Positions 22,519-23,140 of a stretch of DNA of 64,000 nucleotides are shown here, one piece after another. The stretch is from Natrialba aegyptia DSM 13077 (lineage in GTDB: Archaea > Halobacteriota > Halobacteria > Halobacteriales > Natrialbaceae). The number at the start of each line of letters is the position of its first letter. The first letter of the stretch is position 1. The notes beneath the pieces are model-generated. The model ran no database searches, was not told the origin of the DNA, and saw only the letters and a list, made by a program, of their open reading frames with translations. A program made the position numbers and the translations under genes. Where the stretch lies: NCBI RefSeq assembly GCF_000337535.1, contig NZ_AOIP01000017.1:1-64000 (forward strand), given 5' to 3'.

Positions 22519-22694
22519 GTCTCTGGTAGGCGTCAATCACGGGCAGACGGATAATGACTCGTGACTGTCTATCCGCGTGAGAACGTCCGTAATGTTAAGG
22601 TGTCTCGTAGCGCTGCAGGCGCTGGTGGGGCGCGAACGCGGACCGCACATCGGGCGCAGTCCGCGCCGAGCGACGTTCCGAGCGGGTAACAGTA

Positions 22695-22702
22695 GGTATA
22701 AG
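22695..22702 (+). promoter_or_regulatory. TATA box upstream of candidate RNA
   Basis: GGTATAAG lies about 26 nt before 22722, where the folded element begins, so a transcript could start just there. AT content is locally high. Confidence 0.45.
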
Positions 22703-22720
22703 CCGCTATAGATCAACAAT

Positions 22721-22830
22721 TAGACCGGAAGCCACACTCCAGAGTGGGGACAACCGCGCAAGCGGAAATGTCCCGGGTGCTAGGCCCACCCGAGACGTGG
22801 CTTCCAAGTTTGCACCACTTCGAAGCCATG
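22721..22830 (+). ncRNA. Candidate structured RNA with alternative helices
   Basis: Helix P1 is GGAAGCCAC (22727-22735) with GTGGCTTCC (22797-22805), perfect over 9 bp. It encloses three arms: CACU/AGUG near 22734-22745; GGGACA/TGTCCC around a CCGC-GCAA-GCGG stem with a GNRA loop; and GGGTG/CACCC. The 3' strand of P1 can instead form a hairpin with 22817-22828: TGGCTTC-C-AAGT against ACTT-C-GAAGCCA, 11 pairs with one C-C mismatch. Two exclusive folds plus a TATA box upstream resemble a riboswitch or attenuator leading to the zinc-ribbon gene at 22970. It does not match tRNA, RNase P RNA, SRP RNA or 5S RNA as I know them. Confidence 0.5.
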
Positions 22831-22846
22831 ACCTGGTTCATTCTAC

Positions 22847-22864
22847 CGGGATATAAACGTCCCG
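22847..22864 (+). promoter_or_regulatory. TATA-containing small hairpin before the zinc-ribbon gene
   Basis: CGGGA (22847-22851) pairs with TCCCG (22860-22864) and the loop is TATAAACG. The loop reads as a possible TATA box (ATATAAAC) for the gene at 22970, with a leader of about 90 nt. Alternatively it is a further hairpin of the RNA element. Confidence 0.35.
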
Positions 22865-22969
22865 ACAGATTGACGAATACGCGGGAGAATCAGTGGCATC
22901 CGCCGGGTTTGAATCTGACAAGAATAAGAGAAATACGGCCAACAACTGAGGCGGGTCGAGGTGAGCCCG

Positions 22970-23140
22970 ATGTGTGATCGCGATCCACCCGATGACGCTG
23001 AGCGGCCGAACGTCCTCTCACTGTCTACCTGTCCGGTGTGCGGCGGGTCGATCACTCGCGTAACAGTTCACAGCCCCTCCAAGGCCGTTTCGACCCCCTG
23101 TGGCTGTCAGTTTCCGCCCGCCGGTCTCGAGTTCGAGTAG
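22970..23140 (+). CDS. 56-aa zinc-ribbon micro-protein
   Basis: A short gene from ATG 22970 to TAG 23138-23140. The product has MCDRDPPDD, then a CPVCGG knuckle, then PCGCQF, which gives four closely arranged Cys ligands for a zinc ribbon of the kind found in haloarchaeal micro-proteins. The ribosome binding site GAGGTGA lies at 22958-22964, a perfect distance from the ATG, which is unusual here because most genes look leaderless. The predicted long leader contains the structured RNA at 22721-22830. The hisI gene follows 126 nt downstream. Confidence 0.75.
   Translation: MCDRDPPDDAERPNVLSLSTCPVCGGSITRVTVHSPSKAVSTPCGCQFPPAGLEFE

Follow-up and report, generated by a model that had tools for sequence, protein, structure and literature searches.

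A candidate RNA switch with two exclusive folds in leaders of haloarchaeal and haloviral genes

A structured RNA that can adopt either of two folds was found upstream of a small zinc-ribbon gene in the window, by which we mean the whole 64,000-nucleotide stretch of DNA analysed, and it appears to belong to a large class of gene switches, so far undescribed, in haloarchaea and their viruses. It occurs in most of the haloarchaeal genomes sampled, with up to 34 copies per genome, and heads halovirus operons. On comparative sequence evidence, the element is probably a cis-acting switch on translation initiation, in which a central strand (b) pairs either with an upstream strand (a) in fold A or with a downstream strand (c) in fold B, the two pairings being mutually exclusive, and a leader open reading frame (ORF) relays ribosomes to the gene behind it. 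Transcription would start from a TATA box. Pairing of b with a would close a domain made of the helices P1, P3 and P4 and leave the AUG of the leader free (ON), and pairing of b with c would hide that AUG (OFF). The hairpin P6, which lies just past the reach of the initiating 30S subunit, probably places or holds the ribosome. Translation of the leader would terminate at the next gene's start codon, in an overlap of the ATGA type, and the main protein would then be made by termination-reinitiation. An effector, either a small molecule or a protein, would select the fold through the conserved loops of P3 and P4. The coordinates of all features are listed in Table 1.

Table 1. The RNA element, its promoter and the reading frames behind it in the window
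Feature	Position	Strand	Remarks
Promoter region	22688-22724	+	Consensus CagTAgaTATAagtcactaca..gtcaac.attagaac; TATA box TATAAG inside
Whole RNA element	22724-22881	+	Match to the wider model R2, E = 5.8e-22
Strand a (P1 5' strand), GGAAGCCAC	22727-22735	+	All 9 P1 pairs covary; a:b cross-locus permutation z -10
P2/P3 region	22736-22773	+	P3 is GGACA...UGUCC and its pairs covary; P2 optional
P4 hairpin, CGGGTG-CTAGGCC-CACCCG	22774-22792	+	98.1% of cells paired; both sides changed in 5 of 6 pairs
Strand b (P1 3' strand), GTGGCTTCC	22797-22805	+	Common to both folds; pairs with a and with c
Strand c and start codon, GAAGCC-AUG	22822-22830	+	Partner of b in fold B, hiding the AUG; strict b:c permutation
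Leader ORF, 49 codons (MTWFILPGYKRPDRLT...)	22828-22977	+	Overlaps the next gene by 8 nt
P6 hairpin, CGGGA-UAUAAACG-UCCCG	22847-22864	+	Inside the leader ORF; all 5 pairs changed on both sides
Shine-Dalgarno-like GAGGTGA	22958-22964	+	Read from the sequence; inside the final part of the leader ORF
Small zinc-ribbon gene, 56 aa (CPVCG...SP...PCGC)	22970-23140	+	Family alignment: invariant C-P-x-C...P...C

Two exclusive folds

In the window copy, the closing helix P1 was perfect over 9 bp (22727-22735, GGAAGCCAC, with 22797-22805, GUGGCUUCC), exactly as the original prediction had it. The stems foreseen inside this helix were present, including the one with a GNRA loop, which was GCAA; it belongs to an additional CCGC-GCAA-GCGG hairpin in the P2/P3 region, which only the window copy and its nearest relatives have and which the family as a whole does not conserve. 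The exclusive hairpin, proposed with 11 pairs and one mismatch, was found in closely similar form between 22796-22809 and 22817-22830, with one C.C position as the sole exception. The 3' part of the P3 loop contained AAA ('AAa' being conserved in the family consensus), and the family consensus of the P4 loop was YUGGA. These two motifs would be natural sites of contact, either with an effector or between the two loops.

A model (R1) was built from 20 compact copies and used to align 92 members (alignment A4). Across P1, P3, P4 and P6, standard pairs were found in 95.3% of the cells and changes on both sides in 25 of 26 pairs, with 262 double-changed cells vs 52 +/- 8 in shuffles. For P1, P3 and P4, 93.8-98.1% of the cells were paired and 20 of 21 pairs contained double changes, and the slid controls collapsed; moving one strand by 1-3 columns lowered pairing to 27-50%. 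Because the alignment was fitted to the structure, the raw percentage counts for less than these slid controls and the variety of pair types.

In distant members, the three strands differed in sequence, yet a and c each stayed complementary to b, as illustrated by the a/b/c triplets of L089 (CGAACGCCGC / GCGGTGTTCG / GAACACC-AATG), L090 (AGAAAGACCAG / CTGGTCTTTCT / AAAGACC-ATG) and the halovirus BJ1 (TTGACCTGGCC / GGCCGGGTCA / GACCC-ATG). Strands were permuted across the loci of 17 types, with cores chosen by eye, and each locus paired better with its own partner, both for a:b (-21.8 vs -12.0 +/- 1.0, z -10.0, 0 of 20000 permutations) and for b:c (-14.1 vs -9.9 +/- 0.7, z -6.1, 0 of 20000). 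When windows were taken from the alignment to R2 and the AUG only, the b-region and c gave a z of -10.2 (35 distinct types), and a strict test, in which the 3' strand of P1 was set against the AUG together with 8 nt, gave a z of -7.7 (0 of 20000; 30 distinct types), with z between -1.2 and +1.3 for c windows displaced by 10-20 nt. An initial permutation through a free helix search was uninformative, GGAAGCC being common to most members. Many members contained only about 6-7 gapless b:c pairs. Column-wise covariation of b with c was weak since the register of c slips, and it is the per-locus tests that carry the claim for b:c. Both of the exclusive folds predicted for the structured leader were in this way supported by covariation. 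As judged by sequence comparison, these results show a conserved domain, two exclusive pairings, P6 with its spacing and an open, overlapping leader frame.

Folding energies were computed for 1 M NaCl at 37 C and not for molar KCl. The window region reached -59.7 kcal/mol vs -41.8 +/- 4.0 kcal/mol for shuffled sequences (z -4.5), and none of the 200 shuffles was as good. Forced into fold A or fold B, the window copy gave -59.0 and -60.3 kcal/mol, respectively, and is thus close to balanced in the energy model. Over 157 canonical copies the median of dG(A)-dG(B) was -1.4 kcal/mol, and 96 of them lay within 5 kcal/mol. Two folds of nearly equal energy, the order a-b-c along the transcript and the predicted location of strand a at its extreme 5' end would all suit a kinetic timer without a ligand, in which the a:b helix, the earlier one to form as the RNA is transcribed, keeps the AUG accessible to the first ribosomes until c invades b and closes it, with the output set by transcription-translation coupling or by salt or temperature. 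Such a timer needs a, b and c alone, but conservation and covariation extend to P3, P4 and their loops even in very distant members, and we consider it unlikely.

Promoter, leader ORF and downstream gene

The TATA box was located at 22697-22702, 30 nt upstream of strand a, and the same spacing was kept in 126 of the 158 canonical copies, which bears out the promoter-like distance claimed for it originally. Sequence similarity among the copies of this genome starts at about this promoter region, and the transcript is predicted from the promoter region to start at about 22721-22724. In many copies the TATA box lies within an imperfect palindrome, GGTAG-ATATAAGTCA-CTACC, which suggests a putative repressor site shared by the 20 copies of this genome.

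The AUG next to strand c was found to open an overlooked leader ORF and not the zinc-ribbon gene; the stop of the leader overlaps the zinc-ribbon start at 22970. The switch had been predicted to stand before the zinc-ribbon gene, and a structured leader does lie upstream of that gene, but the hidden AUG is that of the leader ORF. The ribosome site attributed to the gene at 22970 was also recovered (GAGGTGA). A leader frame free of stops for 25 codons or more was present in 151 of the 158 canonical copies, as compared with 32 and 13 for the other two frames, and the offset between the leader stop and the next start was -4 in 90, -8 in 33 and -11 in 8. Termination-reinitiation at overlaps of the ATGA type is documented in Haloferax volcanii (PMC6728339, PMC10666635), and an open, peptide-neutral leader fits the delivery of ribosomes by this route.

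The zinc-ribbon pattern was detected in the downstream ORF of 123 of the 158 canonical copies. Haloarchaeal genomes encode large numbers of small C(P)XCG zinc-finger proteins (PMC11241148, PMC6562870); the zinc-ribbon family found here (CPxCG..GP..PCGC) resembles the small CPxCG proteins in being small and numerous and differs from them in that no Pfam or NCBIfam model scored above its cut-off. Its association with the switch opens the question of the role of the many small haloarchaeal zinc ribbons. Elsewhere, the downstream genes encode integrases, PadR-like proteins, zinc ribbons, Tat-signal proteins and one RAMP-like protein. Zinc, histidine or purines had been suggested as ligands; since the genes downstream encode zinc ribbons, PadR-like regulators and mobile-element integrases, this suggestion found no support beyond the presence of hisI 3' of the window copy and its orthologues. 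The zinc ribbons, which also follow members in other families (L247, L263 and L082), could point to autoregulation, in which the small downstream protein (a zinc ribbon in the host, a PadR-like or zinc protein in viruses) binds the RNA and locks one fold. The same RNA core, however, also precedes integrases, Tat-signal proteins and the RAMP-like protein, so that a shared protein ligand encoded elsewhere would fit better, and we regard autoregulation by the downstream product as quite improbable.

The distance from the A of the AUG to the first pair of P6 is 19 nt in the window copy and in 53 of 57 divergent members, a spacing that the model favoured though did not force. Substitutions in the leader codons were then examined. 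In the P6 codons, synonymous sites were nearly frozen (pS 0.010) while non-synonymous sites varied (pN 0.127; pN/pS 12), indicating that P6 is under RNA rather than protein constraint. The codons after P6 evolved neutrally (pN/pS 1.34, then 0.91 in codons 17-30), and purifying selection on the peptide was not found except for a pN/pS of 0.59 in codons 2-6. Since the frame is kept open the leader appears to be translated, and since its evolution after P6 is neutral its peptide hardly matters; the leader ORF thus seems, from its pattern of substitution, to be translated into a peptide of little importance. No obvious transmembrane-type sequence, as a type I toxin would suggest, was seen in the peptide.

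The leader overlaps the next gene and its N-terminus looks conserved (M-F/I-A-Y-I-L-x-G-Y-K), as might be expected of an attenuator or arrest peptide in which the peptide rather than the RNA senses the signal. The apparent conservation, however, tracks P6 (pS 0.010 vs pN 0.127), the later codons are neutral (pN/pS 0.91-1.34), and distant members retain P6 with unrelated peptides. This reading is very unlikely, and it was dropped on the substitution analysis of the leader codons.

Distribution in haloarchaea and haloviruses

A common order was found in 158 distinct canonical copies: promoter block, RNA domain, P5 (a short, variable hairpin), strand c with the AUG, which lies about 93 nt downstream of the first position of a, then P6, leader ORF, overlap and small protein. 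What had been described as a single candidate element turned out to be one of 20 copies in its own genome (by R2 at E <= 1e-4) and a member of a large family, with 10 copies in genome G003 and up to 34 per genome in Natrialbaceae. With R1, the element was detected in 80 of the 125 genomes that belong to its own taxonomic family and in 12 genomes of other families. With R2, which was partly trained on distant members with imperfect alignment and whose E-values are rough, it was detected in 181 of the 293 haloarchaeal genomes searched, the positive ones representing 12 families or more. Named matches include Natrialba, Natrinema, Halovivax, Halostagnicola, Natronorubrum and Halopiger, and 29 loci from other families look authentic on reading. 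When the phylum as a whole was sampled, the 21 genomes with a match all belonged to the order, and R2 detected no element in about 164 Halobacteriota genomes outside it, a soft control in that these genomes are probably lower in G+C.

Viral relatives were reached through the neighbouring downstream protein; exact core motifs had no match in IMG/VR. In HRPV9, SNJ2 and BJ1, the element had a divergently oriented gene of repressor type on one side and the operon facing that gene on the other, and in Humcor1 and Humcor2 it was located 5' of an operon. R2 matched HRPV9, a member of its training set, at E = 3e-12, Humcor2 at 5.5e-7, SNJ2 at 5.6e-7 and BJ1 at 1.5e-4, the last three being outside the training set, and Humcor1 at 0.016. 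The switch AUG is the annotated start of HRPV9 ORF4, SNJ2 gp3, BJ1 ORF21 and the PadR gene of Humcor1, so in these viruses the leader is the N-terminus of the gene itself. No element was seen in the regions of PhiCh1, HHTV-2 and LSV-48N that contain a related PadR or zinc protein. The SNJ2 operon holds two integrase accessory proteins, which are reported to raise integrase activity 70- to 180-fold (PMC8371274). These loci open the question of whether temperate haloviruses decide at the RNA level.

The best explanation of this distribution is an RNA family common to haloviruses and mobile elements that has multiplied before small zinc-ribbon genes in Natrialbaceae-type genomes. Within the window genome, similarity between copies was confined to the promoter, RNA, leader and small ORF, without shared ends, and a non-exhaustive look detected no target-site duplications or terminal repeats around the copies. 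Two other species have the window copy at the same place beside hisI, with 94-96% identity across 3.2 kb, and hisI was found downstream only of this copy and its orthologues. Many dispersed copies might recall a dispersed repeat or miniature transposon with accidental folding, or neutral hitch-hiking of a duplicated gene, but compensatory changes in all helices, two exclusive pairings, homologues at the head of viral operons and an orthologous position in three species with flanks 94-96% identical make this extremely improbable, and the transposon idea was dropped for want of shared ends and for its conserved positions.

Several individual loci were observed in addition. Genome G233, from another family, contained some 20 divergent copies, of which 13 or more shared a single contig (loci L083, L092, L096 and L099-L109, mostly on contig C7), which looks like a large mobile element; its copies precede regulators of the PadR-like kind and another small zinc protein, the second of its sort (MGCRKCG...). 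Canonical copies at L023, L037 and L013 and at L024 and L038 precede other small proteins, namely a zinc protein (CYRCD...CCPDCxAAIGLLEF) and a non-zinc protein ending in ELRATADAYARL, and the same RNA is joined in these five loci to different gene families. Weaker second elements were found in tandem within about 1-1.5 kb of a first one (L016:614-751, L115:2041-2180, L064:2018-2145 and L267:2756-2874). The element at L256:1501-1630 heads a RAMP/Cas7-like gene (PF03787, E 0.006, below the cut-off), and a relative of its protein also lies 3' of the L257 element; a link of these neighbours to a CRISPR-like system is possible.

Comparison with known systems

We compared the preferred reading, a two-fold switch on leader translation, with systems already described. 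Like translational riboswitches in general, the element has a conserved, covarying domain in what is predicted to be a 5' leader, and of its two exclusive pairings one covers the region of initiation. It departs from them in hiding the very AUG and in having as its target a gene-coupled leader ORF; P6 stands at a fixed spacing within coding sequence, and there is no Rfam match or known ligand. The predicted structure contains two hallmarks of a riboswitch, a covarying folded domain and an exclusive pairing that takes in the AUG, and the element is a candidate riboswitch in the strict, ligand-binding sense. It could conceivably also act as an RNA thermometer, whose AUG-hiding helix would melt as the temperature rises.

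In some alphavirus subgenomic mRNAs, a downstream initiation hairpin stands some 20-30 nt past the AUG, where the initiating ribosome has its front edge. P6 has a similar position; the alphavirus hairpins belong to eukaryotic viral mRNAs, with no evolutionary link to P6. Haloarchaeal translation is thought to be largely leaderless, and the switch opens the question of how haloarchaeal ribosomes locate internal AUGs.

Few cis-regulatory RNAs were known in archaea according to a survey of 2020 (PMC7247131), and the Thermococcus fluoride riboswitch was the sole experimentally determined natural archaeal riboswitch by 2021 (PMC8241225). Archaeal ribosomal-protein leaders such as the S15 leader of Halobacteria (PMC7247131) are likewise covarying haloarchaeal leader RNAs found by comparison; they head ribosomal-protein operons, whereas no ribosomal-protein gene lay downstream of the element in the loci read. 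The termination-reinitiation coupling of Haloferax (PMC6728339, PMC10666635) shares the ATGA-type overlap of an upstream ORF with a gene, but the upstream ORF is here a short, peptide-neutral leader under an RNA switch. We tentatively suggest, with somewhat more doubt than confidence, a class of switch sensing a ligand or a protein that is common to haloarchaea and viruses, times early or integrase operons in viruses and mobile elements and has expanded in Natrialbaceae, where it would link 20-34 small zinc-ribbon genes in one co-regulated network. No natural riboswitch class of haloarchaea would precede it, and it would combine a hairpin at the ribosome's front edge with a leader ORF relaying translation.

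No description of the element was found in the literature searched, subscription papers being outside the search. None of the 4227 Rfam models exceeded its gathering threshold on the element, and matches up to E = 10 were chance ones, the best being on the opposite strand with E = 1.3. Neither this search nor the comparison of homologues for covariation, two of the three refuters named in the original prediction, refuted the element. Over the whole 64-kb window, Rfam matched only a tRNA at 258-361 on the forward strand (104 nt, 61 bits), which was missed by ARAGORN and whose length suggests that it contains an intron.
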